64,000 nt of DNA, from the NCBI RefSeq assembly GCF_036711975.1, contig NC_091968.1, forward strand, positions 27,637,001 to 27,701,000, written 5' to 3'. Numbering within the stretch: position 1 is the first letter of the stretch; each line of letters opens with the position of its first letter. Source of the stretch: Onthophagus taurus (taxonomy: Eukaryota > Arthropoda > Insecta > Coleoptera > Scarabaeidae). A program made the position numbers and the translations under genes. The notes beneath the pieces were generated by a model. The model saw only the letters and a list, made by a program, of their open reading frames with translations. It did not search any database and was not told the DNA's origin. Of the stretch, positions 8,501 to 60,863 are shown piece after piece.

Positions 8501-11500
8501 TTAAAATGACAGTTTAATGTCAAGATGACAAGTTCAAATGTCATAATACAGGTACCTACGTAATATAGTGTTTGAATTTCCAATTTCATTTTCAGATAAG
8601 TGCTATAAACAAGTTTTACTTCTTAGTAACTGTTACTTATAAAACCTTACTTTTATTTCTCTTTATTTTCGTCTAACCATTCACATCGCTCCATTTTATC
8701 ACAATAATCATTATTGATATTACAAAGCTTTTTTGTATGGGGTGATCATCGTTCGAAAATTCGTTTCCACATCGCTAACCTAAGTTCGTTCTGAAAATTT
8801 AATAATACATAATTAAAATAAATTTGACGTTATAAAAAAGTGAGGTTATGAAAAAATAAAAACTTGAATGATTAATTTTAAAGAAAAAATCGCTTCGTGA
8901 TACTTACATTCACTTTATACAAATAGTTTAGGTCTTCAAAAACGTATTTTGATGGGTTGTTCAGTTCAATTAAACATTTCTTTATAAAATTTGTTGATTT
9001 TAAGGAATAAGATTTAAACGTCAAAATATCGAGACTTAGTACGCGTGGTTAACGCTAGATGGAGTTAATTTCCGATAAAAATTTTATTTATAAAATAATA
9101 AATAAAGAAATCACATTCTAATTAGAATCAATTAATTGATTTTTTTTATTCAATTAATGTTTATTTTGAAAAAGATTTCAATTTTACGAAGAAATTCTGG
9201 TCAAATTAATGTCAAATTTAATTTAATAATGATGATTACCGCTAGGTGGGGTATTTATATCATTTATTTTAATTATTTATTCTTAAAAATTAATATTTTT
9301 CAACTCAATTTGTTTTATTTATTAAATTGATTTATAATCAAATTATTTATGGCATTATTTCTTTTATAATTCGTTATATATTTATTTTTTGTATGTACTC
9401 GTTAAAAAAGACTATTTTATTCGTAGCATCGGTGGTTCAATGGTAGAATGCTCGCCTGCCACGCGGGCGATCCGGGTTCGATTCCCGGCCGATGCATTTT
9501 TTTTTCTTTTTTTAAATTTATTATAAACATAACATTATTAATTATTACATTAAATATATTAATGAGGATTCGTTATAAATAAATAAAACATTTTTTAGAG
9601 TCTAATATTCCCATCTAAATGGGTTAAACACAATTCGTTTTTCAATCCGGCAAAAAACAGCCACAGAAAAGTTAAAACGACCATCTCTCATCGTGATTTA
9701 CCACTTCTGTAAACAAATTTCCATTCTACTCTAAAACTTTAAACGTAAATCATCTCGAATTGTGGAGATATCACGAAATTAACATCATAAATTAATTAAG
9801 GCGTTCTGAATACCTAAAATGAAACCATTTTTGTTCAACTTTAATGGTTTAAAGCAAAATTGTTTAGAAATGTACATGTAAAATAAAGTTGCATGTTTTG
9901 AATTCTTGTTCTACATATTTCAGTTGATAGCTAACCATTAAGAAAGGTCGTTCAATGGATATGTTCGTGACATCTTTCTTTTATTCCTTTTTATATATTT
10001 TTTAACCATTCGCGCATCGAAAGCATATTTCCGCCCTATTTACGTCGAGTTTACGTCACAGCTGTTGTGCTGAAAACGACAGCTGGATAAAACCTTTTTT
10101 ATTCTCCTCAATTTATTCAAATCGATATCTCATTAAATGATAACTTAATAATAATAAAACTATTTATTTTTATCTTCTTTATAGTAACACCTGAATTCAA
10201 ATACATTGGAAATATGCATGGAAATGAAGTGTTGGGTAGAGAAATGTTGCTGGCTTTAATAACATATCTCTGCGATCAATATTTGATACGTGACAAAGAA
10301 ATAACGACGTTATTATCGATGACAAGGATTCATATTTTGCCTTCGATGAATCCCGATGGGTGGCAAAGAGCTACGGACACAGTAACTAATCTAATCTCGA
10401 TTACAAAAATATATTTAAATAATTAATTTTATTTTTAGGGAGGTAAAGATTACTTAATAGGTCGCCCGAATAATAATTCGGTCGATTTAAATCGAAATTT
10501 CCCCGATTTAAATAAAATTATGTACAGTAACGAACGAAATATGGTCGATCATAATAATCATTTATTACAAGAAATCGATAAATTGAGTCAACCCGTAAAT
10601 AAATATTAATTTCTTAATACAATAAACATTTTAATTAACGCATTTTTAGCTCCAACCCGAAACGAGAGCAGTAATTCGTTGGATAATGTCGATACCATTC
10701 GTTTTAAGTTCAAATCTACACGGTGGCGATTTAGTTGCAAATTATCCCTACGACGAAAGTAGATCGGGAAAACCAAGCGGTCAATACGCCAAAACACCCG
10801 ATGATGACACATTTCGTCATTTAGCTTTAAGTTATTCAACTTATCATAAAGATATGGCCGATCCCAGTCGGAAAGGTTGTGGAGATTCCGATTCGGATAA
10901 CTTTGCGAAAGAAGGTGGGATAACGAATGGAGCGAAATGGTACAGTTTAGAAGGCGGCATGCAAGATTTTAATTATTTATCGAGCAACGATTTCGAAATC
11001 ACCTTGGAATTGGGTTGTCAAAAATATCCGCCGGGTGGACAATTGCAAAATGAGTGGCATAAAAATAAAAACGCTTTAATGAATTTCATGTGGCAAACTC
11101 ATCTTGGAATTAAAGGAATTGTTTATAGTACGGCTAGTAAACAACCAATTAGTAATGCTATTATTCATGTAAAGAATATAACTAATGGAATGGAGAAAGA
11201 TATCGAACATGATATAACATCCGGTAATTAAAAAATACTCCTTTTGTCCCAAATTATGGCATACAAAACTTTAGAAACTGCTTTATTGTATTTGTAAAAT
11301 TGTTTTTTGTTGCAAAAATTGTTATTGGCGATGTTTGGTGCTGCAAAAATTGAATAGCATTGAAGAAGCCAAGGTCTAAAACATTCAAATCAGGACTATT
11401 CGGTGGCTATGATTTGAATTTAATACACCATCCATCTCTTGATCCTTCATCCAGCAATTCTGCATCGTTTTCATAAGAATGCGGTTTTGCATTATCGATA

Positions 11501-14500
11501 ATCATCTTTTTGCGTTCTTCTGCGTTAATAGAGTCGATGTTTTTGGTCACCATTGTTCCTCTTGCACAGTTCTTGCTGTTTCTTTTTAGCCACAGTCCTA
11601 TTTTGCCGTTGAAATACTGTTTTCTGGCACTGTCATAACGTGGTCTGGCCACTGCAGCCATAAACATAACGTTAGTGATGAATAGTTTATAAATTTTTGA
11701 AATGATCGACAATTTTTTCGAATTTTGCAATTTTCCGATTAAGTTTTAAAAATTCGTATAAAATCCATTTCTTGGAATATGAGTTTGAAAATTTCTCAAA
11801 GTGTTGATAAAAGTGTCCTCTTTCCAATAAACCAACCCGTTTTGAAAAATAACTTTTAGTTTTTGAGAAAACAATACTTGAAGTTTTGATTAAATTTTCG
11901 ATGTTGCAATTTTCATCGATAATTTTCAAAATTCGCTATAAAATTAATTTCCTGAAGGATCCTTGTGGAAATATCATCAATTATTAATTAAAGTATCCTC
12001 TTTTTAATGCAAAAAACCGTTTTGGAAAATCACTTTTAGTTCTTGAGAAATAAATTTTATTAATCGACAATTTTTTCGAATTTTGCAATTTTTGCCGATT
12101 AAGTTTTAAAAATTCGTATAAAATCCATTTCTTGGAATATGAGTTTGAAAATTTCCAAAAGTGTTAATAAAAGTGTCCTCTTTCCAATGAACCAACCCGT
12201 TTTGAAAAATAACTTTTAGTTTTTGAGAAAACAATATTTGAAGTTTTGATAAAATTTTCGATGTTGCAATTTTCATCGATAACTTTCAAAATTCGCTATA
12301 AAATTAATTTCTTGAAGCATCCTTGTGGAAATATCACCAATTATTTATTAAAGTATCCTCTTTTTAATGCAAAAAGCCGTTTTGGAAAATCACTTTTAGT
12401 TCTTGAGAAATAAATTTTTTTAATCGAAAATTTTTTCGAATTTTACATATTTCGCCAATTAAGTTTTAAAAATTCGTATAAAATCCATTTCTTGGAATAT
12501 GAGTTTGAAAATTTCCAAAAGTGTTAATAAAAGTGTCCTCTTTCCAATGAACCAACCCGTTTTGAAAAATAACTTTTAGTTTTTGAGAAAACAATACTCG
12601 AAGTTTTGATAAAATTTTCGATGTTGCAATTTTCATCGATAATTTTCAAAATTCGCTATAAAATTAATTTCTTGAAGGATCCTTGTGGAAATATCATCAA
12701 TTATTAATTAAAGTATCCTCTTTTTAATGCAAAAAACCGTTTTGGAAAATCACTTTTAGTTCTTGAGAAATAAATTTTTTTAATCGACAATTTTTTCGAT
12801 TTTTGCATATTTCGCCGATTAAGTTTTAAAAATTCATATAAAATCCATTTCTTGGAATATGAATTTCAAAATTTCCCAAAATGTTAATAAGAGTGTCCTC
12901 TTTCCAATGAACCAACCCGATTTGAAAAATAACTTTTAGTTTTTGAGAAAACAATATTTGAAGTTTTGATAAAATTTTCGATGTTGCAATTTTCATCGAG
13001 AACTTTCAAAATTTGCTATAAAATTAATTTCTTGAAGGATCCTTGTGGAAATATCACCAATTATTAATTAAAGTATCCTCTTTTTAATGCAACAAGCCGT
13101 TTTGAAAAATCACTTTCAGTTCTTGAGAAATAAATTTTTGAAATAATCGACAATTTATTCGAATTTTGCATATTTCGCCAATTAAGTTTTAAAAATTCGT
13201 TAAAATCCAATTCTTAGAATATGAATTTGAAAATTTCCCAAAGTGTTAATAAAACTGTCCTCTTTCCAATAAACCAACCCGCTTTGAAAAATAACTTTTA
13301 GTTTTTGAGAAAACAATACTTGAAGATTTGATAAAATTTTCGATGTTGCAATTTTCATCGATAATTTTCAAAATTCGCTATAAAATTAATTTCTTGAAGG
13401 ATCCTAGTGGAAATATCATCAATTATTAATTAAAGTATCCTCTTTTTAATGCAAAAAACCGTTTTGGAAAATCACTTTTAGTTCTTGAGAAATAAATTTT
13501 TTTAATCGACATTTTTTTCGAATTTTGCAATTTTTGCCAAGTAAGTTTTAAAAATTCGTATAAAATCCATTTCTTGGAATATGAGTTTGAAAATTTCCCA
13601 AAGTGTTAATAAAAATGTCCTCTTTCCAATGAACCAACCCGTTTTGAAAAATAACTTTTAGTTTTTGAGAAAACTATATTTGAAGTTTTGATAAAATTTT
13701 CGATGTTGCAATTTTCATCGATAATTTTCAAAATTCGCTATAAAATTAATTTCTTGAAGGATCCTTGTGGAAATATCATCAATTATTAATTAAAGTATCC
13801 TCTTTTTAATGCAAAAAACCGTTTTGGAAAATCACTTTTAGTTCTTGAGAAATAAATTTTTTTAATCGACAATTTTTTCGATTTTTGCATATTTCGCCGA
13901 TTAAGTTTTAAAAATTCATATAAAATCCATTTCTTGGAATATGAATTTCAAAATTTCCCAAAATGTTAATAAGAGTGTCCTCTTTCCAATGAACCAACCC
14001 GATTTGAAAAATAACTTTTAGTTTTTGAGAAAACAATATTTGAAGTTTTGATAAAATTTTCGATGTTGCAATTTTCATCGAGAACTTTCAAAATTTGCTA
14101 TAAAATTAATTTCTTGAAGGATCCTTGTGGAAATATCACCAATTATTAATTAAAGTATCCTCTTTTTAATGCAACAAGCCGTTTTGAAAAATCACTTTCA
14201 GTTCTTGAGAAATAAATTTTTGAAATAATCGACAATTTATTCGAATTTTGCATATTTCGCCAATTAAGTTTTAAAAATTCGTTAAAATCCAATTCTTAGA
14301 ATATGAATTTGAAAATTTCCCAAAGTGTTAATAAAACTGTCCTCTTTCCAATAAACCAACCCGCTTTGAAAAATAACTTTTAGTTTTTGAGAAAACAATA
14401 CTTGAAGATTTGATAAAATTTTCGATGTTGCAATTTTCATCGATAATTTTCAAAATTCGCTATAAAATTAATTTCTTGAAGGATCCTAGTGGAAATATCA

Positions 14501-17500
14501 TCAATTATTAATTAAAGTATCCTCTTTTTAATGCAAAAAACCGTTTTGGAAAATCACTTTTAGTTCTTGAGAAATAAATTTTTTTAATCGACATTTTTTT
14601 CGAATTTTGCAATTTTTGCCAAGTAAGTTTTAAAAATTCGTATAAAATCCATTTCTTGGAATATGAGTTTGAAAATTTCCCAAAGTGTTAATAAAAATGT
14701 CCTCTTTCCAATGAACCAACCCGTTTTGAAAAATAACTTTTAGTTTTTGAGAAAACTATATTTGAAGTTTTGATAAAATTTTCGATGTTGCAATTTTCAT
14801 CGATAATTTTCAAAATTCGCTATAAAATTAATTTCTTGAAGAACCCTTGTGGAAATATCACCAATTATTAATTAAAGTATCCTCTTTTTAATGCAAATAA
14901 CCGTTTTGGAAAATCACTTTTAGTTCTTGAGAAATAAATTTTTTTAATCGACATTTTTTTCGAATTTTGCAATTTTTGCCAAGTAAGTTTTAAAAATTCG
15001 TATAAAATCCATTTCTTGGAATATGAGTTTGAAAATTTCCCAAAGTGTTAATAAAAGTGTCCTCTTTCCAATGAACCAACCCGTTTTGAAAAATAACTTT
15101 TAGTTTTTGAGAAAACAATGCTTGAAGTTTTGATAAAATTTTCGATGTTGCAATTTTCATCGATAATTTTCAAAATTCGCTATAAAATTAATTTCTTGAA
15201 GAATCCTTGTGGAAATATCATCAATTATTAATTAAAGTATCCTCTTTTTAATGCAAAAAACCGTTTTGGAAAATCACTTTTAGTTCTTGAGAAATAAATT
15301 TTTTTAATCGACAATTTTTTCGATTTTTGCATATTTCGCCGATTAAGTTTTAAAAATTCATATAAAATCCATTTCTTGGAATATGAATTTCAAAATTTCC
15401 CAAAATGTTAATAAGAGTGTCCTCTTTCCAATGAACCAACCCGTTTTGAAAAATAACTTTTAGTTTTTGAGAAAACAATATTTGAAGTTTTGATAAAATT
15501 TTCGATGTTGCAATTTTCATCGAGAACTTTCAAAATTTGCTATAAAATTAATTTCTTGAAGGATCCTTGTGGAAATATCATCAATTATTAATTAAAGCAT
15601 CCTCTTTTTAATGCGAAAAACCGTTTTGGAAAATCACTTTCAGTTCTTGAGAAATAAATTTTTGAAATAATCGACATTTTTTTCGAATTTTGCATATTTC
15701 GCCAATTAAGTTTTAAAAATTCGTATAAAATCCATTTCTTGGAATATGAGTTTGAAAATTTCCCAAAGTGTTAATAAAAGTGTCCTCTTTCCAATGAACC
15801 AATCCGTTTTGAAAAATAACTTTTAGTTTTTGAGAAAACTATATTTGAAGTTTTGATAAAATTTCCGATGTTGCAATTTTCATCGATAATTTTCAAAATT
15901 CGCTATAAAATTAATTTCTTGAAGAATCCTTGTGGAAATATCATCAATTATTAATTAAAGTATCCTCTTTTTAATGCAAAAAACCGTTTTGGAAAATCAC
16001 TTTCAGTTCTTGAGAAATAAATTTTTGAAATAATCGACATTTTTTTCGAATTTTGCATATTTCGCCAATTAAGTTTTAAAAATTCGTATAAAATCCATAT
16101 CTTGGAATATGAGTTTGAAAATTTCCCAAAGTGTTAATAAAAGTGTCCTCTTTCCAATGAACCAATCCGTTTTGAAAAATAACTTTTAGTTTTTGAGAAA
16201 ACTATATTTGAAGTTTTGATAAAATTTCCGATGTTGCAATTTTCATCGATAATTTTCAAAATTCGCTATAAAATTAATTTCTTGAAGAATCCTTGTGGAA
16301 ATATCATCAATTATTAATTAAAGTATCCTCTTTTTAATGCAAAAAACCGTTTTGGAAAATCACTTTCAGTTCTTGAGAAATAAATTTTTGAAATAATCGA
16401 CTATTTTTTTGAATTTTGCATATTTCGCCAATTAAGTTTTAAAAATTCGTATAAAATCCATTTCTTGGAATATGAGTTTGAAATTTTCCCAAAGTGTTGA
16501 TAAAAGTGTCCTCTTTCCAATGAACCAACCCGTTTTGAAAAATAACTTTTAGTTTTTGAGAAAACAATACTTGAAGTTTTGATAAAATTTTCGATGTTGC
16601 AATTTTCATCGATAACATTCAAAATGCGTTATAAAATTAATTTCTTGAAGGATCCTTGTGGAAATATCAACAATTATTAATTAAAGCATCCTCTTTTTAA
16701 TGCGAAAAACCGTTTTGGAAAATCACTTTCAGTTCTTGAGAAATAAATTTTTGAAATAATCGACCATTTTTTCGAATTTTGCATATTTCGCCAATTAAGT
16801 TTTAAAAATTCGTATAAAATTCATTTCTTGGAATATGAGTTTGAAAATTTCCCAAAGTGTTAATAAAAGTGTCCTCTTTCCAATGAACCAACCCGTTTTG
16901 AAAAATAACTTTTAGTTTTTCAGAAAACAATACTTGAAGTTTTGATAAAATTTTCTATGTTGCTTTTTTATTAATATCATTTTTATTCAAATATCGCAAT
17001 AATATGGGAATATAGGGTACCACTTTAGAAATGCACCAGAAGAGGATGCCGAATATCCGGCTCGAAGGGGATACCATAATTTGGGACAAAGGGAATATTA
17101 TAAACGAGTTTTAAATAATTTTGTTTGTTGTAGTTTTTGGTGGAGATTATTATAGATTATTAACCCCCGGAAAATATAAAGTTACTGCATATCGTGATGG
17201 GTTTTTACCTCATAGTAGAATTGTTACGATTACAAACCCACCTTTTACTGAAGCTCAACGAGTCGATTTTGGTTTAAAACCAATTACGGTAAATTAGAAC
17301 AAATTTTAATTAATCGTTGTAATTACTTTTTGTTGCTTATTTTATTTTTTTAGGTTGATGATATTCATAAAAGAAAAAACAAAAAGCATTCTAAACACAG
17401 AGTGTAACTTTTTTTATTATTTTAAAACTATTTTTGTTGGCTTATTATAAACGTTAGTTGTTAAAGTTAATTCTTTTAAAGTAAAATATTAATTACTTTT

Positions 17501-18030: not shown

Positions 18031-20545
18031 ATGTATATTCACAATTTGTTAATGAAAAAAAAAACGGTATTACGAGCATGGTACAGAAAAACTTTTAGAA
18101 CGAAAGTTGTAGCAAATTTTACTCTTTACACATTGCTCTCTAACACTTTTGCTCTCAGCTGCATCAATGTCGAGAAAAATTCGAAAATATGAAAATTAGA
18201 AGAATAGTAGTTTCACAATTGGGTAATGAAAAAAAAACGGTATTCTGAGCATGATACAGTAAAACTTTTACAGCAAAAGTTGTAGCAAATTTTGCCCTTT
18301 TACACATTGCTCTGTAACACTTTTGTCCTCAGATGCATCAATGTAGAGAAATATTTGAAAATATGAAAATTGGAAGAATTCGTAGTTTCACAATTGGGTA
18401 ATAAAAAAAAACGGTATTCCGAGCATGATACAGAAAAACTTTTACAACAAAATTTGTAGCAAATTTAACCCTTTACACATTGCTCTTTAGCACTTTTGCT
18501 CGCAGATTCATCAGTTTAGAGAAATATTCGAAAATATGAAAATTGGAAGAATTCGTAGTTTCACAATTGGGTAATAAAAAAAAACGGTATTCCGAGCATG
18601 ATACAGAAAAACTTTTACAACAAAATTTGTAGCAAATTTAACCCTTTACACATTGCTCTTTAGCACTTTTGCTCGCAGATTCATCAGTTTAGAGAAATAT
18701 TCGAAAATATGAAAATTGGACAAATTCGTAGTTTCACAATTGGGTAATGAAAAAAAAACGGTATTCTGAGCATGATACAGAAAAACTTTTACAATAAAAG
18801 TTGTGGCAAATTTAACCCTTTACACATTGCTCTTTAACACTTTTGCTCTCAGCTGCTTCAATGTCGAGAAATACTCGAAAATACGAAAATTGGAAGAATT
18901 CGTAATTTCACAATTTGCTAATGGAAAAAATATGGTGTTCCGAGCATGATACAGAAAAACTTTTACAACAAAAGTTGCAACAAATTTGACGCTTTTACAC
19001 ATTGCTCTCTTACACTTTTGCTCTCAGCTGCATCAATATAGAGAAATATTCGAAAATATGAAAATTGGAAGAATTCGTAGCTTCACAATTGGGTAATGGA
19101 AAAAAAACGATATTCCGAGCATGATACAGAAAAACTTTTAGACCAAAAGTTGTAGCAAATTTTACCCTTTACACATTGCTCTCTAACACTTTTGCTCTCA
19201 GCTGCATCAATGTCGAGAAATATTCGAAAATATGAAAATTGGAAGAATTCGTAGTTTCACAATTGGGTAATGAAAAGAAAACGATATTTCGAGCATGATA
19301 CAGAAAAACTTTTAGACCAAAAGTTGTAGCAAATTTTACCCTTTACACATTACTCTCTAACACTTTTGCTCTCAGCTGCTTCAATGTCGAGAAATATTCG
19401 AAAATATGAAAATTGGAAGAATTCGTAGTTTCACAATTGGTTAATGAAAAAAAGCGGTATTCCGAGCATGATACAGAAAAACTTTTACAGCAAAAGTTGT
19501 AGCAAATTTTACCCTTTACACATTACTCTCTAACACTTTTGCTCTTATCTGCATCAATATCGAGAAATATTCGAAAATATGAAAATTGGAAGAATTCGTA
19601 GTTTCACAAATGGGTAATGAAAAAAAAACGATATTCCGAGCATGATACAGAAAAACTTTTAGACCAAAAGTTGTAGCAAAATTTACCCTTTACACATTGC
19701 TCTCTAACACTTTTGCTCTCAGCTGCACCAATGTCGAAATATATTCGAAAATATGAAAATTGGAAAAATTCGTAGTTTCACAAGTTGCTTTATGGAAAGA
19801 AATACGGTATTCAGAGCATGATACAGTAAATCTTTTACAACAAAAGTTGTAGCAAATTTTACCCTTTACATATTGCTTTCTAACACTTTTGCTCTCAGCT
19901 GCACCAATGTCGAAATATATTCGAAAATATGAAAATTGGAAAAATTCGTAGTTTCACAAGTTGCTTTATGGAAAAAAATACGGTATTCAGAGCATGATAC
20001 AGTAAATCTTTTACAACAAAAGTTGTTGCAAATTTAACCCTTTACACATTGCTCTCTAACACTTTTGCTCTCAGCTGCTTCAATGTCGAGAAATATTCGA
20101 AAATATGTAAATTGGAAGAATTCGTAGTTTCACAATTGGTTAATGAAAAAAAGTGGTATTCCGAGCATGATACAGAAAAACTTTTACAACAAAAGTTGTA
20201 GCAAATTTAACCCTTTACACATTGCTCTTTAGCACTTTTGCTCTCAGCTGCATCAATGTAGAGAAATATTCGAAAATATGAAAATTGGGAGAATTCGTAA
20301 TTTCACAATTTGCTAATGGAAAAAATATGGTGTTCCGAGCATGATACAGAATAACTTTTACAACAAAAGTTGTAACAAATTTTACCGTTTACACATTATT
20401 CTCTATCACTTTTGCCCTTAGATGCATCAATGTAGAGCAATACTCGAAAATATGAAAATTGGAAAAATTCGTAGTTTCACAAGTTCCTAATGGAAAAAAA
20501 GGATATTGCGAGTATGATACAGAATAGCTTTTACAACAAAAGTTG
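18030..20545. repeat. 174-bp tandem array between CPE and eIF2B beta, ~14 copies
   Basis: Units carry GAGCATGATACAGAAAAACT and end in GAAAATTGGAAGAATTCG, spaced about 174 bp. Divergence between units is modest. No terminal inverted repeats were found around this array. The last copy stops about 170 bp before the eIF2B beta ATG, so it adjoins or overlaps that gene's promoter. Confidence 0.92.
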
Positions 20546-20712
20546 TAGCAAATAATATATTTATAAACAAGACTTTAATTTTCTAAATTTATAAACATAA
20601 CCTATAAACGTCAAACGTGAACGTCAAATTAACCTAACCTTAATCTAACCCGCTAATAAAAAAAGCATAAATTTCATAAAATTACACATTTTAAAAACTA
20701 TTTACTTCAAAA

Positions 20713-22048: not shown

Positions 22049-22606
22049 ATTAATTATAATTAAAACAAATAGAAATAAAAAAAGTTTTGGAAAAATTGAA
22101 GAATCATCATGTGGCTTAAAATCGACGATTTTTTTTTTAATCTATACATATAAATAACCCAAAAAAACGTTAAAAATAAAAAGGAAGCGCGGAAAAGTGC
22201 AGAACATATCGAAAAATCACTTTAAAGTTTCGATGTGACGTCACAATAATAATAATATACTTTGTAAAGGACCTAATTATTTGAAACGTCAAAATTTCAA
22301 AAAACGTCAATTTAATTTAATATTTTTAGGACTTTCTAAAGATTTAACATTAAAAAAACGTAAACAAATTCCTTTTTTCCTATGGTTTAAGCATAAATTA
22401 ATTAATTTTTGTAACAAAAATGACGTTTCATAAAATTGACATTTAATTTTGACAAATTGTTGTGAAGTTGGTTACAGTTGGTAATATTGAATTAGTATCA
22501 CCTTGACGTTTAAACTTTATTCAAAAATTTATTTAAAAATCATTATTTAAACACTAAACAAGTGTTATTAAACTCAAGAAATAAAGAGTTAAAATTGATC
22601 TCTCAA
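22049..22606. other. eIF2B beta 3' region and left copy of a direct repeat
   Basis: After the 3' UTR, the ~180 bp at about 22380-22560 (with GTTGGTTACAGTTGGT) recurs at about 26030-26190 on the other side of the 146-bp array. The copies differ by several substitutions and small indels. No gene was seen. Confidence 0.6.
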
Positions 22607-22760
22607 TACGGCTAAATCCGAATGATTCTAGGTCTACTGTTAGTTCTACTTTTATTTCAGTAAGAATAGGCAACAATTTAGCGCTTAATAACAATTAAAA
22701 CTAGAATTAACACTAGACGTAGTCTTCAGACGCACGGCTAAATCCGAATATTTGTAGTTC
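22607..22760. repeat. Palindromic CTAG repeat, partial copy
   Basis: A partial member of the palindromic family, with CGGCTAAATCCGAATGATTC and a second GGCTAAATCCGAAT end. It forms the left border of the 146-bp array. Confidence 0.6.
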
Positions 22761-25700: not shown

Positions 25701-25990
25701 CAAAAGTTGTTCCTCGTTTAATTCTTAACAAGTTTTATTTGAAAAATATTTTGATACAAAGAATAATTAGGAAGATAATCTTAAATTTCATTTTTTTACT
25801 GTTTACAGGGAAATGCAAAAATTGATAATTTTAAAAAATGGTGCTTACAAAAGTTGTTCCTCGTTTAATTCTTAACAAGTTTTATTTGAAAAATATTTTA
25901 ATACAAACAATAATTAGGAAGATAATCTTAAATTTCATTTTTATACTGTTTATAGGGATACAGTTTTATTTGAAAAATATTTTGATACAT
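22757..25990. repeat. 146-bp tandem array, ~22 copies
   Basis: Units contain GTTGTTCCTTGTTTAATTC, then AATTAGGAAGATAAT and ACAGGGAAATGCAAAAATTG. Six or so copies between about 24286 and 25110 are essentially identical to each other and share private variants (ACAAGCAATAATTAGG, ATCTCAAATT). That indicates recent local homogenisation. The array is flanked by a direct duplication of single-copy-like sequence. Confidence 0.93.
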
Positions 25991-37200: not shown

Positions 37201-40200
37201 ATTGTTGATTTTCGAAAATTAACTCAATCATAACTCAAAAACTAAAAGCGATGGAAAAAAACTTTTTATACATAAAACCTTAGTAATGGGCAATAAAGAC
37301 TAGATCCATAACAAGATTGAACCCAATTATTACTATTTTTTATTTATAAGCTCTAAATCGATTAAACATCAAAATTGTTGATTTTCGAAAATTAACTCAA
37401 TTATAACTCAAAAACTAAAAGCGATGGAGAAAAACTTTTTATACATAAAACCTTAGTAATGGACCATAAAGACTAGATCCATAAAAATATTGAACCCAAT
37501 TATTACCATTTTTTATTTATAAGCTCTAAACCGATTAAACATCAAAATTGTTGATTTTCGAAAATTAACTCAATTATAACTCAAAAACTAAAAGCGATGG
37601 GGAAATACTTTTTATACATAAAACTTTAGTAATGGTCGATAAAGACTAGATCCATAAAAAGATTGAACCCAATTATTACCATTTTTTATTTATAAGCTCT
37701 AAATCGATTAAACATTAAAATTGTTGATTTTCGCAAATTAACTCAATCATAACTCAAAAACTAAAAGCGATGGGAAATACTTTTTGTACATAAAACCTTA
37801 GTAATGGGCCATAAAGACTAAACCCATAACAAGATTGAACCCAATTATTACCATTTTTTATTTATAAGCTCTAAATCGATTAAATATCAAAATTGTTAAT
37901 TTCGAAAATTAACTCAATCATAACTCAAAAACTAAAAGCGATGGAAAAAAACTTTTTATACATAAAACCTTAGTAATGGGCAATAAAGACTAGATCCATA
38001 ACAAGGTTGAACCCAATTATTACCATTTTTTATTTATAAGCTCAAAATCGATTAAACATCAAAATTGTTGATTTTCGAAAATTAACTCAATCATAACTCA
38101 AAAACTAAAAGCGATGGAGAAAAACTTTTTATACATAAAACCTTAGTAATGGACCATAAAGATTAAATCCATAACAAGATTGAACCTAATTATTACCATT
38201 TTTTATTTATAAGCTCTAAACCGATTAAAATGGCGAAGTTATTGGCTATATTCCAGACATTTCACACATCCTCTATAAAAAATTTGCGTTATTTTGGCAA
38301 GTACTACGTCCTAGTAAAGAGTCCCGATTAAAAATTGAACCAACCTGTATAAAATGAATAAATTTATTTATTTTTTGTAAAAGAAACAGTGGGATCTGGA
38401 ATTATTTAACGATTCTCAAGGACACGCAACAATCCGTAACTGCGAAATGAGTCAATCCAGTCAATATGAATCAAGCGATAATGACGATATTGATAATGAT
38501 ATTAAAGCGTGTTTATCTGGAAAAGAAGCTGGTGTGTAATAACTTAATAATTTAATAATTAATGATTAATATTGACGTTTTTTTTTGTCAATAGTGAATT
38601 GCATAATTTGGGTGCGTGGCGAAATGCGAAAAGCTCGACTAAAAGTTTTAGATATAAGCTCTCTAATTATACGAAAAGTTGAGGCGATGCCGAATAGCAT
38701 GGAATATTTTTATTTGGGTCTGATATTTTCGACTTTTTTTGCTTTGACCCCACCGATGTGTAGATTTTTTAAAAACATGCAAACAACCTCGAATGATGAG
38801 CACGATTTCAAGAACGATTACAAAAACGATTTTCATCAATTATCCGTTTTTGGCATTGTTAATAATGCTTTTGATAAAGATTCGGTTACTTCAGCCCTTG
38901 AAGCATCATTTGGTTATTCAACTTTGTAAGTTTAGTTGCTATTTTAAATTTCTTATTAATTTTAATTTTTTTATTGTAGGGCACAAATTATATTATTATT
39001 ATCTTGCGTCCAACGTTTCGTCCTCTCTTTTTTCTATTTCTTTTTATTATCTGTGGCCGAAAGAACTTTCAAACATCGCTTATTATACGCAAAGTTTTTT
39101 ACGCATTTAACATCAAGCAGAAGAGCGAGAAATTCCGATTTGCCACATTTTCGCCTCGATCGCGTCGCAAATATAAAGACATGGCTTTCAGTTCGATCGT
39201 ATTTAAAGAAGCAGGGTCCCTTACGATCAGTTGATGTCATTGTATCATCATCCTTTTTGATCACGATACCGTTATTGGTATTTCTTTGTACTGAATTTTT
39301 AAAGGTAAATGATTTAGCTTAAGAAATAATTTAATAATAATCTTTTTTTTGTTTAAGGATTCGATTTCGTTCCAATCTGAGAATATAATTGAAGCAATGA
39401 TTTTGTGTACTCTTTTGGGTATTTATTTGTTTCGTTTTTTAACCTTGGGTGCTAAAATCAATGAGAAATCTCGTAACTTTTCCGTTATTACAATGGAACA
39501 AATCAATTTAAACCTACAATTGGAGCAGAAACCCAAAAACAAAGACACATTGAGTATAGCTAATAACGTGTTAAAATTAGCATCAGATTTACTTAAAGTA
39601 AGTACAGAAAATTTCACTTAAAATGCAATAATATACTAAAATATATTTTCATAGAAACCAGGGCGTACCTATTTACATTGTTCCACATAAAATGTAACAT
39701 GTCAAATAGACTAGACTAACACTAGCAGTAAAACTAACTCTAGAACTAGAAACACTCCGTTTAGCTGTATGTACAGGGTGGTTCAAATTCGATGTCCAAA
39801 TAGGCTAACTCAGAAACTATAAGAGTTAGAAAAAAAGTAGCTTACATGTCATGATCTCGTTTTTCGAGAAACTGCTAATGCCGAAAACCTCAAAGCACTA
39901 TCGTTTTTTCTTTTTCCCCTAGAGGCCAAAATTGAAAATATCGTAAAACCAAGAAGTGCAATTATCTTGGTTATTATTATAGGTAGAGTATTATAACTAA
40001 GATATTATATGGACACTTTTTTACAGAGAATTTGATGACGTAGTCAAAAAAATTTTTTCGCTTTTAGATTTTGAGATATGACAATTTTCGTTTTTTTTAA
40101 TTACTGAGTATTCGTTTATTAAATTCGTTATTTTTTTCTGATTACAAAAATATGGGGTTAGATAGGTCTATTTCTTATTGTTTAAGAATAAAGCTAAAAA

Positions 40201-43200
40201 TAAATTTTTTTTAGTGTCGTCAAAGAAAGTAAATTTACAGTTTCCTGTAAATTTATATAAAATTTATTTTGTAACATTCTAACATGTTAAACTTTTCGTA
40301 ATCCATCTTAAAAAATAGGATTTTTAATTTGACACTTCAGAAAATTTTTGAATACAAACAAATGTTGCTATTCTATGTTTATTTGAATTAAAATATATAT
40401 ATATATGAGTGCCATCTATCAACAATTTATCAAGTCATTTAATAATAATATTAAATATTAATAAAAAATGTGAAATAATGTAATCTATTCCAACTTTTGT
40501 GTAAAACAAATATAAATTAAATGGTTCAACAAATGTATTTGTTTCAAATGTCAGAAATATGTTTATTTAATTATTAGTTATAATTTACAGGAAACTGTAA
40601 ATTTAATTTCTTTGACAACACTAAAAAATAAGTTTATTTTTAACTTTATTCTAAAACAATAAGAAATAGACCTGTCGAACCCTATATTTTTGTAATCAGA
40701 AAAAAATAACGAATTTAATAAGCGAATAATGGAAACTTATTGTAAATTAATCTGGTAACGACAGTTACGTCAAAGTCAAAATAACGGCGATTTATTTTCG
40801 AACAGCGAATACATGCGAATAGCAGTTGCCCATTTCCGTTTAGTTGGTTGTAGGTTTGAGAGCGTTCTGCTAAAACAAAGACATCACAAAACAGTTTGAT
40901 AAACTGCTATTATTCATTTTGAATTTTCAATCATTTCGTGTAATTGAAGATGAAGGCTTTAAAAATTTGTTTCTGGGTTAAATCCTGCTTACCAGTTACC
41001 CGGTTACACTATATCTAAAACTATGATACCCGCTTTATACGCGGAATGTCTTGTAAACATGAAAAATCGAATGTTTTAACTTTTTTGGACCCTCGCTTTA
41101 AAGATTTAGGGTTTTCAGATAAAAACGCAAAGAAAATTATTATACTGGCAGTTTCGGAAAAGTATTGTACTCAAACTCGTGCAGAAATTGGTAAGTACTG
41201 AAGGCACTTTTGATGAAATAAATAGTTATCAATATGGAGCTGCTTTGACCAAAGCATAGCAGTCGCTCGACATATTGCCATTATTGAGGTACAAATGTTT
41301 CTTGAGGAAGAAATCACTACTGGCAGCAATGAAAGTTCAATAACTTCCCTTTTTTGAACGACTTTGACTTAGCGAGATAAAGAAATTAAAGTTTGTTTCG
41401 TCTAAATAGATGTTTTAACTTTGAAGCTCAAGCAAACTTCTTATGCATTGAGATCTCATCGACGGTGTTGGTTTTTTCCGGTTCAAAAAGTATTTGTTTT
41501 AACCCTTTGTGTCCCAAAAAGTCAAAAATTTTGAAAGTTTGTGACAGAATTAAAACGCTAGGCCTTTGGAATCAATTTTAGCAAAATATGCAATCCCCCT
41601 ATTCCAGGGGGAAACAAATATAAATTAAATGGTTCAACAAATGTATTTGTTTCAAATGTCAGAAATATGTTTATTTAATTATTAGTTATAATTTACAGGA
41701 AACTGTAAATTTAATTTCTTTGACAACACTAAAAAATAAGTTTATTTTTAACTTTATTCTAAAACAATAAGAAATAGACCTGTCGAACCCTATATTTTTG
41801 TAATCAGAAAAAAATAACGAATTTAATAAGCGAATAATGGAAACTTATTGTAAATTAATCTGGTAACGACAGTTACGTCAAAGTCAAAATAACGGCGATT
41901 TATTTTCGAACAGCGAATACATGCGAATAGCAGTTGCCCATTTCCGTTTAGTTGGTTGTAGGTTTGAGAGCGTTCTGCTAAAACAAAGACATCACAAAAC
42001 AGTTTGATAAACTGCTATTATTCATTTTGAATTTTCAATCATTTCGTGTAATTGAAGATGAAGGCTTTAAAAATTTGTTTCTGGGTTAAATCCTGCTTAC
42101 CAGTTACCCGGTTACACTATATCTAAAACTATGATACCCGCTTTATACGCGGAATGTCTTGTAAACATGAAAAATCGAATGTTTTAACTTTTTTGGACCC
42201 TCGCTTTAAAGATTTAGGGTTTTCAGATAAAAACGCAAAGAAAATTATTATACTGGCAGTTTCGGAAAAGTATTGTACTCAAACTCGTGCAGAAATTGGT
42301 AAGTACTGAAGGCACTTTTGATGAAATAAATAGTTATCAATATGGAGCTGCTTTGACCAAAGCATAGCAGTCGCTCGACATATTGCCATTATTGAGGTAC
42401 AAATGTTTCTTGAGGAAGAAATCACTACTGGCAGCAATGAAAGTTCAATAACTTCCCTTTTTTGAACGACTTTGACTTAGCGAGATAAAGAAATTAAAGT
42501 TTGTTTCGTCTAAATAGATGTTTTAACTTTGAAGCTCAAGCAAACTTCTTATGCATTGAGATCTCATCGACGGTGTTGGTTTTTTCCGGTTCAAAAAGTA
42601 TTTGTTTTAACCCTTTGTGTCCCAAAAAGTCAAAAATTTTGAAAGTTTGTGACAGAATTAAAACGCTAGGCCTTTGGAATCAATTTTAGCAAAATATGCA
42701 ATCCCCCTATTCCAGGGGGATAATGGTACTTGAGAGTAACATCTAAATCACATTATGATATTCAGAAAAACAGATCTTTCTTCTTTCATTACAATATAAA
42801 TAAACATTTCACGCAGTACATTTTGGGTGGGGTCTAGCTTTGGCAGAACAATTTTCACAACTTCCTCTTTCTTTTGAATTTGTGCTATCACCTTTTCGTG
42901 GACGCAGTAAATTTGAATATTTATTTATTAGACCTGTAGCTACAGAACAACGAAAATCTGAGAGAATATTGAGAAAAAACATATTGAGCAAAAACTAACA
43001 TTTTCGCATAATATAAGTGTCAAAAAAGATGCTAATTCAAAAATTCCTGGAAGCCGTGTTTATTGAAATTAAGAAATGAAACTTATTTTAAATTGAAGCT
43101 TAAAGCTTTCTGTTTAAATCGATGTATAATAATCGTTGGGTTGGATTGGAAAAATATTGAAAGAAAAAATGTTGAAATAAAACTTACATTTTTTTATAAC

Positions 43201-46200
43201 CTAAAAGTGTCAAAAAAGATGCTAATTTAAAAATTCCTGGAAGATGTATTTGTTGAAATTAAGGAATGAGATTTATTTTAAATTAAAGCTCAAAGCTTTC
43301 TCTTTAAAATGATGTATAATAATTGTTGGGTTGGATTGGAAAAATATTAAGAAAAAAAATTTTGAAACAAAGCTTACATTTTCGTATAACCTAAAAGTGT
43401 CAAAAAAGATGCTAATTTAAAAATTCCTGGAAGCTGTGTTTATTGAAATTAAGGAATGAAACTTATTCTAAATTAAAGCTGAAAGCTTTCTCTTTAAAAT
43501 GATGTATAATAATTGTTGGGTTGAATTGGAAAAATATTGGGAGATAAAATGTTAAAATAAAACTTACATTTTTTTATAACCTAAAAGTGTCAAAAAAGAT
43601 GCTAATTTAAAAATTCCTGGAAGATGTATTTCTTGAAATTAAGGAATGAGATTTATTTTAAATTAAAGCTTAAAGCTTTCTCTTTAAAATGATGTATAAT
43701 AATTGTTGGGTTGGATTGGAAAAATATTAAGAAAAAAAATTTTGAAACAAAGCTTACATTTTCGTATAACCTAAAAGTGTCAAAAAAGATGCTAATTTAA
43801 AAATTCCTGGAAGCCGTGTTTATTGAAATTAAGGAATGAGATTTATTTTAAATTAAAGCTTAAAGCTTTCTCTTTAAAATGATGTATAATAATTGTTGGG
43901 TTGGATTGGAAAAATATTGAGAAAAAAAATGTTGAAACAAAACTTACATTTTCGTATAACCTAAAAGTGTCAAAAAAGATTCTTATTTAAAAATTCCTGG
44001 AAGCCGTGTTTATTGAAATTAAGGAATAAGACTTATTTTAAATTAAAGCTCAATGCTTTCTTTTTAAAATGAGTGTTTAAAACTCCCGGTACTTTAAAGT
44101 ACCGTCGGGACACAAAGGGTTAAATAGATTTAAATAGTTTTCTATGTATAGTGTTAGTTCTAGTTGTACGCTAACACTATCACTAAAACGAACACTATAC
44201 CTAGAACTAGAATCAATTGGGTTTAGCCGCACGTCTATAAAGACGGCTAAACCCAAATGATTCTATTTCTAGGTATAGTGTTAGTTCTAATTTTATAGTA
44301 ACACTATCACTAAAACGAACACTATACCTAGAAATAGAATCATTTGGCTTTAGACGCACGTCTCTAAAGACGGCTAAACCCGAATGATTCTAGTTCTAGG
44401 TATAGTGTTAGTTCTAGTTTTACACTAACATTATCACTGAAACGAACACTATACCTACAACTAGAATCATTTGGGTTTAGCCGTCTTGAGAGACGTGCGG
44501 CTAAACCCAAATGATTCTAGTACTAGGTATAGTGTTAGTTCTAGTTTTACACTTGCACTGTCACTAGAACTATCATTTGACCTAGAACTAGAAACATTTG
44601 GGTTTAGCCTACGTCTCTTAAGACGGCTAAACCCAAATGATTCTATTTCTAGGTATAACAATGCATAACAATTAAAACTAGAACTAATACTAGACCTAGA
44701 ACTAGAAACGTTTTAGTTCTAGGTCTAGTGTTAGTTCTAGTAGCAGTATCACTAGAAATGTCATTAATGTCAAAAATGACGTTTACTAAAGATTTCTAAA
44801 TTTTATTTATTTAAGGTTGGTCACATTGAAATGTCAAATTAAATGTCAAAAGTGACGTTTTAAATATTTAACATAAGAATTTAAATCTGATTTAACACTT
44901 TTTTTTTTAAAAAAGCCATTGTCGCAAAGAGTTATTAAAAATCTTTAGTAAAATAGATTACCACGTTTTAAAAAGGAAAGAAAACATTGCTGTCCAGCGG
45001 TTTTTCTATTTCTTCACTTCTCATGTTCAATCTTTCTTCAAAATTTTCGGCCCATGTTTTAGGTCTTGTGTTAGTTCTCTAGCAATAATACTAGACCGAG
45101 AACTAGAAACCTTTGGGTTTAGCCGTGTGTCTTCAGCGAATGTCAAGTTGACGTTTAAAAGTCAAATAATAGTTTTACTTTTTGTACAGATCATTTTCCA
45201 ATAACGGTGTTAATAATTTCATTCTAATAAATGTTACAGTTTTCCATTTTCCATCCAACTTTTTTGTTGAAATTTATTTTTCTTATTCTATTTATAACCC
45301 TTTTTGATTTTTTTAATAGTTTTGACATGCTTCTTAACATTTAAACGTCATTTTGACGTTTATATCCTTAAAATGGTACCAACCTAAGTTTTTGGAAATC
45401 TTTTGATAAATATCGAATATTTCATACCAGTTTTTTATAAATTTTTTTATTTATAGTAACATATTTCGCTAATTTTAGTATTTCTATAAGATTTTTTACA
45501 TTAAATTATCTCATTTTAGAGTGTTTTGAAATTTACATTTTTAACGATATTGACGTTTAATTGTCAAATTGACGTTTAAAAGTCAAATAACAGTTTTACT
45601 TTTTGTACAGATCATTTTCCAATAACGGTGTTAATAATTTCATTCTAATAAATGTTACAGTTTTCCATTTTTTTCCAACTTTTTTGTTGAAATTTATTTT
45701 TCTTATTCTATTTATAACTCTTTTTGATTTTTTTAAATAGTTTTGACATGCTACAAATGTCTTCTTAACATTTAAACGTCATTTTGACATTTATATCCTT
45801 AAAATGGTACCAACCTAAGTTTTTGGAAATCTTTTGATAAATATCGAATATTTCATACCAGTTTTTTATACATTTTTTTATTTATAGTAATATATTTCGC
45901 TAATTTTCGTAATTTCCATAAGATTTTTTACATAAAATTAACTCATTTTTGAGTGTTTTAAGATCTATGTAGATTTTTAACGATATTGACATTTAATTGT
46001 CAAATTGACGTTTAAAAGTGAAATAATTGTGAGTCGTAAAGTTATTAAACTTAAAATTTATTATAAAAACTTTATTATTTAATTTTTTGTATTAAATCAT
46101 TATAACTTAGCTCATTTGTATCATACGATACTTGAGGAACCACTAAAACTAGAACTAACACAGAACAGACTAGAACAAGAATCATTCGGGTTTAGCAGTA

Positions 46201-48715
46201 TGTCTCTAAAGACGGCTAAACCCGAATGATTCTAGTTCTAGGTATAGTGTTAGTTCTAGTTTTACACTAATATTATCACTAGGGCACGGAACTTTTGTAA
46301 CAAAACGATACGATTTCCCCTCTCCACTCGTTCTCAGGAGAAAATTTCATACAAAAGTTGTTCTAAATAAAATTCTAAAACTATTTTCTCAATAAAAAAA
46401 ATATATAAAAATATATATATAAAAATTTTTTTGAGATTATGTTCTTAATTATTGATCAAATCAAAAATTTTTATTAACAATATTTGTTTAGAATTACTTC
46501 AGGAACAGTGTTTGTTAATACAATTTTTTGCTAACTTGAAATTTTAATTTCCCTCTGAATAGTATGGTATCAAAATTAATTATCTCAATAATTATTGTTT
46601 TTATCAAAAAATGTTTTAAATAAAATTTGTTTCAATTTCGATTTTGAATCGATTATCTTAATAAAAAAATTTTACATCTCTATTAATTAAGCCTCTAAAT
46701 GTAATTATGTATAAAAATGGAAAAATTATTGTTTTGAGGTTATCTCCTTAATTATTGATTAAATCAAAAAATTTTGTTAACAATATTTGTTTAAAATTGT
46801 TTCAGGAACAATTTTTGTTAACACAATTTTTTTCTAACTTGAAATTTTAATTTCCCTCTGAATAGTATGCTACAAAAATTAATATTTTTGAGGTTATATC
46901 CTGATTGTTGATTTAATCAAAAAATGTTGTTAACAAAATTTGTTTAGAAATACTTCAGGAACAGTGTTTGTGAATACAATTTTTTGCTAACTTGAAATTT
47001 TAATTTCCCTCTGAATAGTATGGTATCAAAATTAATTATCTCAATAATTATTGTTTTTATCAAAAAATGTTTTAAATAAAATTTGTTTCAATTTCGATTT
47101 TGAATCGATTATCTTAATAAAAAAAATTTACATCTCTATTAATTAAGCCTCTAAATGTAATTATGTATAAAAATGGAAAAATTATTATTTTGAGGTTATC
47201 TCCTTAATTATTGATTAAATCAAAAAATTTTGTTAACAATATTTGTTTAAAATTGTTTCAGGAACAATTTTTGTTAACACAATTTTTTTCTAACTTAAAA
47301 TTTTAATTTCCCTCTGAATAGTATGCTACAAAAATTAATATTTTTGAGGTTCTATCTTTATTGTTGATTTAATCAAAAAATGTTGTTAACAAAATTTGTT
47401 TAGAAATACTTCAGGAACAGTGTTTGTTAATACAATTTTTTGCTAACTTGAAATTTTAATTTCCCTCTGAATAGTATGCCATCAAAATTAATTATCTCAA
47501 TAATTATTGTTTTTATTAAAAAATGTTTTAAATAAAATTTGTTTCAATTTCGATTTTGAATCAATTATCTTAATAAAAAAATTTTACATCTCTATTAATT
47601 AAGCATCTAAGTATAATTAAGTATAAAAACGGAAAAATTATTATTTTGAGGTTATCTCCTTAATTATTGATTAAATTAAAAAATTTTGTTAACAATATTT
47701 GTTTAAAATTACTTCAGGAACAGTGTTTGTTAATAAAATTTTTTGCTAACTTGAAATTTTAATTTCCCTCTGAATAGTATGCTACAAAAATTAATATTTT
47801 TGAGGTTATATCCTTATTGTTGATTTAATCAAAAAATGTTGTTAACAAAATTTGTTTAAAAATACTTCAGGAACAGTGTTTGTTAATACAATTTTTTGCT
47901 AACTTGAAATTTTAATTTCCCACTGAACAGTATGCTGTTTTTTTAATCAAGATTTTCTGAGAACGAGTGGAGGGGGGAAATCGTATTTTGTTACAAAAGT
48001 TCCGTGCCCTGATTATCACTAAAACGAACACTATACCTAGAACTAGAATCATTTGGGTTTAGCCGCACGTCTCTAAAGACGGCTAAACCCAAACGATTCT
48101 AGTTCTAGGTATAGTGTTAGTTCTAGTTTTACACTAACACTATCATTAAAACGAACACTATACCTAGAACTAGAATCGTTTGGGTCAAATGATAGTTCTG
48201 ACAGTGTAAGTGTAAAACTAGAACTAACACTATACCTAGAACTAGAAACATTTGTGTTTAGCAGTACGTCTCTTAAGACGGCTAAACCCGAATGATAACA
48301 ATTATTATGCACAACAATTAATTATTATTAATGTCATTAATGTCAAAATGACGTTTTCTAAAGATTTCTAAATTTTATTTATTTAAGGTTGGTCACATTG
48401 AAATGTCAAATTAAATGTCAAAACTGACGTTTTAAATATTTAATATAAGAATTTATATTAAATTTGTTTGCAGTCCTGTTAGTCCTTGGACGTGTTGCAT
48501 TTTATTTGGGGCCCTGATTTCTATGGAAATATATTTTTGTATATTGCTATTATTAATTTAATTTTTTTTAGCAACTTGATAGTCCATTTAAAGTGTTGGG
48601 TCTTTCAGCGAATCCGATCGTTTACGCCACAATTAAATTAATAATACTCTCGGCTCTATCAGCCGTTGTTACTGAACTCCTTGGATTTAAAATAACTTTA
48701 GACAAACTTAAATAA
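28214..48715 (+). CDS. phtf: PHTF (putative homeodomain transcription factor family) membrane protein
   Basis: Nine exons (28214-28248, 28302-28441, 33012-33232, 33289-33723, 38390-38531, 38595-38925, 38980-39304, 39358-39597, 48572-48715) join in phase to 670 residues. The N-terminus has WYQKKIGRYDKQEWEK and a hydrophobic FLPFYLTWWTR segment. The middle is low-complexity and acidic. The C-terminal half has several hydrophobic helices and the family core LLYAKFFTHLTSSRRAR, PHFRLDRVANIKTWLSVRSY and RSVDVIVSSSFL, ending ELLGFKITLDKLK. Human PHTF1 has 762 residues. Despite the name, the family is an ER-type multipass protein; its molecular function is unclear. Intron 2 starts with GC rather than GT (AAG|GCAAG). 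Only 2 kb of 20.5 kb is coding. AATAAA overlaps the stop. Confidence 0.95.
28597..28705 (+). pseudogene. Duplicated 3' end of PHTF exon 2 and start of intron 2
   Basis: The last ~35 coding bases of exon 2 (AATTACAAAAATTTCATTG onward), its GC-type donor and about 70 bp of intron recur here in degenerate form. TTAGTACAAGGCAAG of the true site has become CTACAAAGCAAG. Lacking an acceptor, it should be silent. Confidence 0.8.
28855..32205. repeat. 355-bp tandem array with a hairpin in every unit, ~9.5 copies
   Basis: Units recur every ~355 bp (TTATGCACTAATCGTAT at about 28881, 29590, 29943, 30298). Each has perfect 18-bp arms (TTCGTTCTTGAGATATTC and its complement) separated by ~55 bp. The similarity extends outward imperfectly to about 75 bp per arm, to GATTT...AAATC blocks near AAAAATGA / TCATTTTT. 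It fills most of PHTF intron 2. Confidence 0.92.
32325..32940. repeat. Transposon-derived sequence in PHTF intron 2
   Basis: Begins with ACAGGTGTCTCACGTAACTG and contains CTTCCGGTATACCGGAAG, an 18-bp perfect palindrome. Another terminus-like TACAGGGTGGTCAAAA occurs at about 32753. These look like ends of non-autonomous DNA elements, but I could not pair them or find target duplications. Confidence 0.4.
34051..34432 (-). mobile_element. Internally deleted mariner relic with N-terminal transposase fragment
   Basis: Inverted ends (CAATCAAAGTAGGTGCCGAA at left; CAATCAAGGTAGGCACCGAA when the right is inverted) continue through ATAACGCCGC, with TA at 34049 and 34433. On the minus strand, within 34167-34358, the frame reads MAQLRIQILMMYGYGERKRT and TGSVKNLPKSGR. 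That is the N-terminal DNA-binding (DUF4817/HTH) part of insect mariner-type transposases. The catalytic domain is gone. It is nested in the larger TA-flanked element. Confidence 0.75.
34440..38235. repeat. 174-bp satellite array in PHTF intron 4, ~22 copies
   Basis: Units carry TTGTTGATTTTCGAAAATTA, then CTAAAAGCGATGGGGAAATA and GAACCCAATTATTACCAT. A higher-order period of ~690 bp (four units) is clear: the variant AACCCATAAACTAAAAGCG recurs at about 35161, 35851 and 36541. It is unrelated in sequence to the 174-bp array at 18030 despite equal unit length. Confidence 0.92.
39711..40270 (-). repeat. Palindrome fragment and inverted copy of the MORN4-intron repeat
   Basis: A short piece of the CTAG palindrome family (39711-39768) is followed by TACAGGGTGGTTCAAATTCG. 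About 480 bp then match the reverse complement of the 785-bp unit at 718-3072. This fixes TACAGGGTGGTTC as a genuine element terminus. Confidence 0.75.
41073..41196 (+). pseudogene. hAT (ZBED-like) transposase fragment, copy 1
   Basis: The frame reads VLTFLDPRFKDLGFSDKNAK then a helix ending EIGKY. The LDPRFK motif is the hallmark of hAT/ZBED transposases. No longer frame exists on either side. Confidence 0.7.
42181..42304 (+). pseudogene. hAT (ZBED-like) transposase fragment, copy 2
   Basis: The same LDPRFK-containing frame as at 41073, carried by the second copy of the 1108-bp duplication. Confidence 0.7.
42745..42991 (-). pseudogene. piggyBac transposase C-terminal cysteine-rich domain remnant
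   Basis: The minus strand reads KERGSCENCSAKARPHPKCT, then an in-frame stop two codons later, then NVYLYCNERRKICFSEYH. This follows the Cys-rich zinc domain that ends piggyBac transposases (CxxC ... LC ... CFxEYH). The catalytic DDD domain is absent. Confidence 0.7.
43010..44075. repeat. 190-bp tandem array inside the piggyBac-like element, ~5.6 copies
   Basis: GTGTCAAAAAAGATGCTAAT recurs at about 43018, 43208, 43398, 43588, 43778 and, diverged, 43968. Each unit also has AAAGCTTTCTCTTTAAAATG and GTTGGGTTGGATTGG. Confidence 0.92.
44150..44755. repeat. Largest palindromic CTAG/GTTTAGCCG array
   Basis: At least four tandem units of ~127 bp. Each joins a TAGCCG...CGGCTA hairpin (arms about 30 bp, loop with GTCT and AGAC) to a GTGTTAGTTCTAG...CTAGAACTAACAC-type hairpin. 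Open frames of ~65 codons on both strands here are products of the palindrome. A remnant lies at 45058-45130. Confidence 0.85.
45140..46030 (+). repeat. Pair of ~420-bp direct repeats in PHTF intron 8
   Basis: The block from TGACGTTTAAAAGTCAAATA at about 45150 recurs at about 45567 with few changes, including TGTACAGATCATTTTCCAAT. No coding potential was seen. Confidence 0.8.
46139..48300. repeat. Palindromic repeat block split by a hAT-like insertion
   Basis: Palindrome-family sequence at 46139-46279 continues at 48012-48300 once the 1732-bp insertion is removed. Sequence just outside (about 48320-48440) also duplicates 44765-44880, so the block 44.8-48.3 kb is bracketed by a direct repeat. 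Confidence 0.75.
46280..48011. mobile_element. Non-autonomous hAT-like element with internal 455-bp repeats
   Basis: The left end is TAGGGCACGGAACTTTTGTA; the right end, inverted, is CAGGGCACGGAACTTTTGTA. The inverted repeat extends through the CCACTCGTTCTCAG region. The host duplication ATTATCAC occurs at 46272-46279 and 48012-48019. CAGGG ends with 8-bp duplications are the hAT signature. The interior is ~3.5 copies of a ~455-bp AT-rich unit with no coding frame. Confidence 0.87.
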
Positions 48716-60812: not shown

Positions 60813-60863
60813 GAAGCTTTACTAAATCAGTTTTTGACACTCAGGGAATTGTTTAGAATAATT

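Follow-up and report, generated by a model that had tools for sequence, protein, structure and literature searches.

Satellite arrays between the ends of several cut-and-paste transposon families, and their spread near genes

The origin of satellites and their spread through gene-rich DNA form an old question, which is raised again by a stretch of 64,000 bp (C3:27637001-27701000 of a 290.8-Mb genome; hereafter the window) where tandem arrays occupy both intergenic and intragenic positions among animal genes coding for a zinc carboxypeptidase, initiation factor 2B, Mago nashi and fructose-bisphosphatase. An initial annotation of this window placed four arrays between the inverted termini of four transposons. 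Are such arrays the regular cargo of the elements that surround them? Several cut-and-paste families do house short satellite arrays between their termini and appear to disperse them close to genes, and the elements described here are in our judgement likely to be non-autonomous transposons with satellite cargo of two grades, namely array-bearing families and private associations.

Examination of the window with Tandem Repeats Finder at a period limit of 500 revealed eight arrays of more than 1 kb, with a total of 24,980 bp (39% of the window); raising the limit to 600 adds one array (537 bp, 4.8 copies, 55259-57865). Four of the eight lie inside elements designated A, E, F and G, and the boundaries, inverted termini and target duplications that the initial annotation had given for these elements were all confirmed. 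Its periods of 360 and 190 bp were exact, while those of 174 and 455 bp are corrected to 173 and 456 bp. It had left out the four other arrays, around which no clear pair of termini was found. Elements and arrays are as follows, with no strand assigned.

11238-17095: element A, mariner-like termini (CTCCTTTTGTCCCAAATTATGG...), TA at 11236-11237 and 17096-17097
33755-38347: element E, Tc1/mariner-type termini (CAGGGTGGTTCA...), TA at 33753-33754 and 38348-38349
42611-44119: element F, piggyBac-like, ends CCCTTTGTGTCCC, TTAA at 42607-42610 and 44120-44123
46280-48011: element G, hAT-like, 8-bp duplication ATTATCAC at 46272-46279 and 48012-48019
11689-16963: 360-bp satellite (two halves of ~180 bp), 14.6 copies, inside element A
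34437-38229: 173-bp satellite, 22.0 copies, inside element E
42965-44080: 190-bp satellite, 5.9 copies, inside element F
46424-47934: 456-bp higher-order unit of three ~152-bp monomers a, b and c, 3.3 copies (abcabcabca), inside element G
18038-20553: 174-bp array, no clear termini, kin of an array in locus L025
22760-25958: 147-bp array, no clear termini, unit akin to the hAT-borne unit
28861-32213: 354-bp array within an apparent intron, with a weak pair of inverted repeats at 28504-28538 / 32939-32978
50271-54487: 153-bp array in an apparent intron (by eye) of the fructose-bisphosphatase gene

Arrays filling so much of the window, half of them outside any clear termini, speak for chance nesting, in which arrays inserted into or grew inside resident transposons and were never moved by them. 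The evidence from other loci, given family by family below, bears on this alternative.

Other repeats were observed close to the arrays. Direct repeats flank the 147-bp array (22374-22549 / 26025-26201, 154 of 172 aligned bp identical) and the 153-bp array (49992-50176 / 54576-54767, 172 of 185 aligned bp identical), and to our knowledge these far exceed transposon target duplications in length. Left of the 354-bp array, a piece across the apparent exon-intron boundary is duplicated (28404-28492 and 28601-28686, 91%). A strongly palindromic repeat of 127 bp (GGGTTTAGCCG...CGGCTAAACCC) lies beside or around several arrays, and element G is inserted in one of its copies.

44139-44741, 46141-46281, 48014-48296, 50175-50280, 22599-22654 and 63766-64000: 127-bp palindromic repeat, no strand assigned

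At 59875-63754, long inverted ends (73% over 331 bp) surround a stop-to-stop open frame of 581 codons with a DUF7869 match, and this element is probably a DNA transposon. At the start of the window, copies of a ~230-bp repeat are spaced ~785 bp apart (807-1032, 1590-1817, 2376-2602; 93-94% identity), and the repeat is found again upstream of element F (40504-40730, 41612-41838).

Searches of the whole genome with up to three mismatches gave 54, 446 and 568 matches for the terminus patterns of A, E and G, against 1, 0 and 1 for reversed-pattern controls; the F pattern (17 bases, starting with TTAA) gave 706 matches with up to one mismatch, against 0. By these counts, the four termini are no chance matches. 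Places of E, G and F termini are the first 100 among the matches listed. All locus counts below are samples biased to close relatives (38-40 candidates scored, first 100 to ~150 places listed), and termini with more mismatches than the allowed limit fall outside them. Contig C8 (21.1 of 290.8 Mb) carries none of the 54 A-type matches.

The initial annotation had proposed that non-autonomous elements repeatedly gain tandem cores, and the hAT-like family of element G is indeed array-bearing. Terminal inverted repeats of hAT elements are short and start like CAGGG; the G termini have NAGGGCACGGAACTTTTGTAAC at both ends, a frequency that is by construction, as copies were selected by this sequence. 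The sample is non-random, consisting of the window and 19 further loci with head-to-head pairs of exact termini from the first 100 matches listed (L029 and L032 are one locus). It yielded 21 elements with both termini, from 814 to 4317 bp in length. Arrays of ~152-bp a, b and c monomers, mostly (abc)n, are present in 20 of these, L042 being the exception, and their structures range from b'cbca to cbc(abc)8. Irregular monomer order with no regular abc run was seen in 4 of the 20 arrays (L030, L036, L043 and L044), and Tandem Repeats Finder reported no array in L039. The place and orientation of the array are constant among the 20 array-bearing elements, and the 8-bp duplication is perfect in 18 of the 21, matches at seven of eight positions in one and is absent in two. 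Such agreement in array kind, place and orientation, together with the duplications, argues against chance nesting.

The units of this family are homogenised within elements. Divergence among 55 complete abc units is 3.3% within elements vs 6.5% between them, and of 50 units from elements with more than one unit, 35 have their nearest relative among the units of their own element (expected 6.6%). In L032, units 1 and 3 form one identical pair and units 2 and 4 another. Since units are closer within than between elements, copy number appears to change locally too. The left subterminal ~90 bp of G resembles monomer b in register, a likeness reached by 0 of 200 shuffles in three of the four elements tested and by 2 of 200 in the window copy; this suggests that the hAT-like array may have grown out of the element's own end. 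The family offers a direct test of how satellites arise and spread, as its 568 terminus matches mark many insertions in which each array has a known birth site, and its copies let the growth and homogenisation of a higher-order satellite be traced copy by copy. Outside the element, a relative of the hAT unit is the 147-bp unit of the array at 22760-25958 (z 10.9). Among the matches listed (39 of 326 candidates scored), relatives of the 147-bp satellite besides the window were seen only on C8, a 21-Mb contig, on C16 and at C10:8.0-8.4 Mb, and this satellite could be chromosome-specific.

Termini of the mariner-like A type also house arrays, as first proposed, but the satellites are others than that of the window copy. 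Of ~45 terminus loci, 20 were sampled, mainly from the top of the list plus its terminus pairs. An array adjoins the terminus at 12 of them, made up of a 173-bp satellite (sat173) in ten and of a shared 249-257-bp satellite in two. The copy number of sat173 varies from 2.6 to 30 across the ten loci, and its orientation relative to the asymmetric A ends is constant in 10 of 10 elements. Arrays are enriched at the termini, 13 of 30 listed sat173 loci having an A terminus within 3 kb where 0.04 are expected. This enrichment and the fixed orientation count against chance nesting in the A family, so that it is improbable there as in the hAT-like family. The other 17 listed sat173 arrays have no detected A terminus, although one (C7:18839140-18840645) lies ~2 kb from an A-like stretch. 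This is compatible with the suggestion that transposons may seed satellites, seeding being one possible direction. Divergence of sat173 units is 7.5% within vs 10.1% between elements, and 81 of 104 units have their nearest neighbour in the same element. This closeness is driven by the larger arrays; L010 (12.9% within, 11.1% between) and L024 (10.4% and 10.3%) are exceptions, and no unit of L010 or L011 has a same-element nearest neighbour. A single sat173 monomer was sought in the array-free A-family loci examined, and none was found.

The window copy of A is atypical in its transposase remnant on the left, its family match of ~27 bp on the right and its 360-bp satellite.

11262-11688, minus strand: remnant of an A-family transposase gene (3' part), reading frame interrupted by a stop, with matches in other A-family loci

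The DD39D group of mariner elements, to which the initial annotation had related A, has a D-D spacing of 39. The spacing between the D residues of this transposase is 39 if the last D is taken from NVLD and 34 if it is taken from SPD (by eye, in broken copies only). Among A-family open reading frames, Pfam gave only DUF7769, in one frame of locus L003. Single stretches at six A-family loci resemble the 174-bp array at 18038-20553 over 110-132 bp, with best identities of 74-82%.

For the piggyBac-like family of element F, the window copy has its TTAA target duplication on both sides, and the comparison with other copies used coordinates only. The list of exact F termini is complete for C1 and the beginning of C2, and there such a terminus lies within 3 kb of three of seven listed 190-bp array loci, with 0.1 expected. 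Of 28 listed array loci outside the window, seven lie within 3 kb of an exact terminus or within 1 kb of the left end of F, and left end and array are on the same strand at all five loci where both are listed. These coordinates agree with the earlier view of F as an array-bearing family. A perfect tandem duplication of ~1.1 kb (40504-42720) has its breakpoint inside F and copies the left 110 bp of the element; it is either very recent or an assembly artefact. Although this duplication cuts the left end of F and could be a haplotype artefact, misassembly as the general source of array lengths or of the position of arrays inside elements is barely credible, as the same organisation between termini recurs at many separate loci on several contigs.

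Element E belongs by its TA at both ends and by the DDE-type transposase of its relatives to the Tc1/mariner group. Its inverted ends extend over at least 61 bp at 88.5%, and relatives of ~2.4 kb encode a Tc1/mariner-type transposase with DUF4817 and DDE_3 above cut-offs and HTH_Tnp_Tc3_2 below cut-off. A smaller element is nested on the left of the array.

34047-34436 (approximate), no strand assigned: small nested inverted-repeat element abutting the 173-bp array, ends matching inverted at 73% over 127 bp

The sample comprised 20 further loci from 100 listed of 446, namely ten terminus pairs and ten single termini with window-like variants. Both termini are in view at 14 loci, and at none of these does an array with a period above 140 bp lie between them; in L068 an array lies just outside the termini. 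Of the six loci with one terminus in view, only L060 has an inward array, its other end not being reached. When the 38 loci listed on C1-C6 for the E 173-bp satellite were checked for an E terminus (up to one mismatch) within 3 kb, one locus had it, the window itself, and matches outside the window to the right junction of the array end at the array edge (query positions 51-63 of 131, one at 75; 40 candidates scored). As far as the listed loci go, the E array was therefore rejected as a family-wide cargo of E termini, and the earlier proposal that it is a recurrent core of its element did not hold. Similarly, of the 36 loci listed for the 360-bp satellite the window alone has an A terminus within 3 kb, and on these loci the satellite was rejected as a family-wide cargo of A termini.

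Thus the proposal of repeated gain of tandem cores stands for the hAT-like and piggyBac-like elements and fails for the 360-bp and E 173-bp arrays: in the matches listed, two of the four window arrays belong to array-bearing families whose termini flank them elsewhere, and two are private associations of satellites located elsewhere. The 35 of 36 and 37 of 38 listed loci at which the two private satellites occur away from the termini are what chance nesting would predict, and this explanation keeps some weight for them, but as an account of the window as a whole we regard it as rather unlikely. A second alternative, that the satellites came first and transposon pieces landed on both sides of standing arrays, draws on the same loci without detected termini and on the right side of the window A copy, which matches its family over about 27 bp only. 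The perfect 8-bp duplications of 18 hAT-like elements stand against it, as do the introns of both private elements. Element A, whose inverted ends measure about 27 bp, fills an apparent intron of the zinc-carboxypeptidase gene (11224-17133, ends by eye; Peptidase_M14 in the upstream exon), and element E fills the apparent intron 33724-38389 (ends by eye). Without the element and one TA these introns would be about 50 and 71 bp long (by eye), which fits one insertion each, the TA duplications being two bases long only. We therefore find this second alternative very improbable.

The units themselves were compared in 153 pairs with 60 dinucleotide shuffles per pair, the top 40 of the 153 being examined. 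The four units inside elements are mutually unrelated, as had been stated (the best pair has a z of 2.3, and its score of 78 is exceeded by the top shuffle at 84), and one common ancestor for all window arrays was rejected by this shuffle-controlled comparison. Supported relations link the 174-bp array with that of L025 and the 360-bp satellite with arrays at two loci, L060 and L068. The hAT unit is likewise linked to the 147-bp unit. The E 173-bp unit is related to the downstream L028 array, and this array in turn to sat173 of the A family; the direct likeness of the E 173-bp unit to sat173 is weak, with a score of 96 and a z of 4.0 where the best shuffle reached 86. No resemblance was found between array units and flanking element parts for A, E and F, where this was tested. 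A motif chosen post hoc, WCTCAARAACKAAA, occurs 68 times with up to one mismatch in 11855-38109 vs 1.3 expected, and 63 of these occurrences are in the 360-, 354- and 173-bp satellites, which are otherwise unrelated. An unbiased search for a k-mer common to the satellite families found none that stood out from 30 shuffles.

Returning to transposons with satellite cargo as the preferred reading, the families could have formed as follows. In the hAT-like, piggyBac-like and mariner-like A elements, the last with its 173-bp and ~250-bp cargo, an array of single origin would be inherited and carried along at each move. During or after each move, unequal exchange or slippage would alter the array length in unit steps, and the units would homogenise within the element. 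In the private cases, the 360-bp and E 173-bp satellites may have been captured by an A- or E-type element, or inserted into the element later. The standalone 147-bp and 174-bp arrays, judged from their sequence, would fit shedding by transposons or the reverse direction.

A more far-reaching possibility, which we put forward tentatively and with less confidence than the carriage of cargo itself, is that transposon ends act as exchangeable satellite cassettes. Several terminus families would independently pick up satellites that already existed (one has held at least three, of 173, ~250 and 360 bp), carry them into introns, expand them in higher-order steps and shed them as standalone arrays such as the 147-bp array. 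If cargo is exchanged between terminus families in this manner, transposon families would be vehicles of satellites and not their source only.

Tandem-repeat-carrying MITEs are already known, and reviews describe the Scalvenzi-Pollet model, according to which standalone satellites derive from a mariner MITE that has a satellite inside (PMC12628747, PMC9659126, PMC10218199, PMC10048060). An array between termini, at many sites and in variable copy number, as in such MITEs, was found here for G (20 of 21 elements) and A (12 of 20 loci); among the listed loci it was not found for the 360-bp (1 of 36) and E 173-bp (1 of 38) arrays, for which more diverged termini are possible. The closest comparison described in these reviews is with miDNA4 of Xenopus, a Tc1/mariner MITE with an internal satellite (Scalvenzi and Pollet 2014, as cited in PMC12628747, PMC10218199 and PMC9659126). 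In both cases a mariner-type element is non-autonomous and its internal satellite varies in copy number, and the loss of termini proposed to precede standalone arrays of miDNA4 is a further likeness. Unlike miDNA4 as reported there, the present case includes hAT-like and piggyBac-like families, a higher-order hAT array, and one mariner-like terminus family with three satellites.

Other known elements share part of this organisation. Tetris, a foldback transposon of Drosophila virilis, and its TIR-220 are described as having internal tandem repeats of variable number related to longer arrays elsewhere, but these repeats lie inside long inverted termini whereas the arrays here lie between termini (PMC4079207). 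Non-autonomous Helentrons of oyster disperse short arrays, mainly of 140-180-bp monomers, genome-wide as transposon cargo; according to that account they are rolling-circle elements with no target duplications, unlike the cut-and-paste elements with duplications found here (PMC7492417). In Tribolium, TCsat23 is located in the transposon Rehavkus-1_TC, where the array is reported to be in the inverted termini of a 9.5-kb element (PMC10218199). In the open-licence literature searched, neither a hAT element with an internal higher-order array nor a cut-and-paste terminus family with three cargo satellites was met. The variant seen here consists of the higher-order array of the hAT-like family and the single terminus family with three satellites; the satellite vehicle as a kind is itself known and is here unusually varied.
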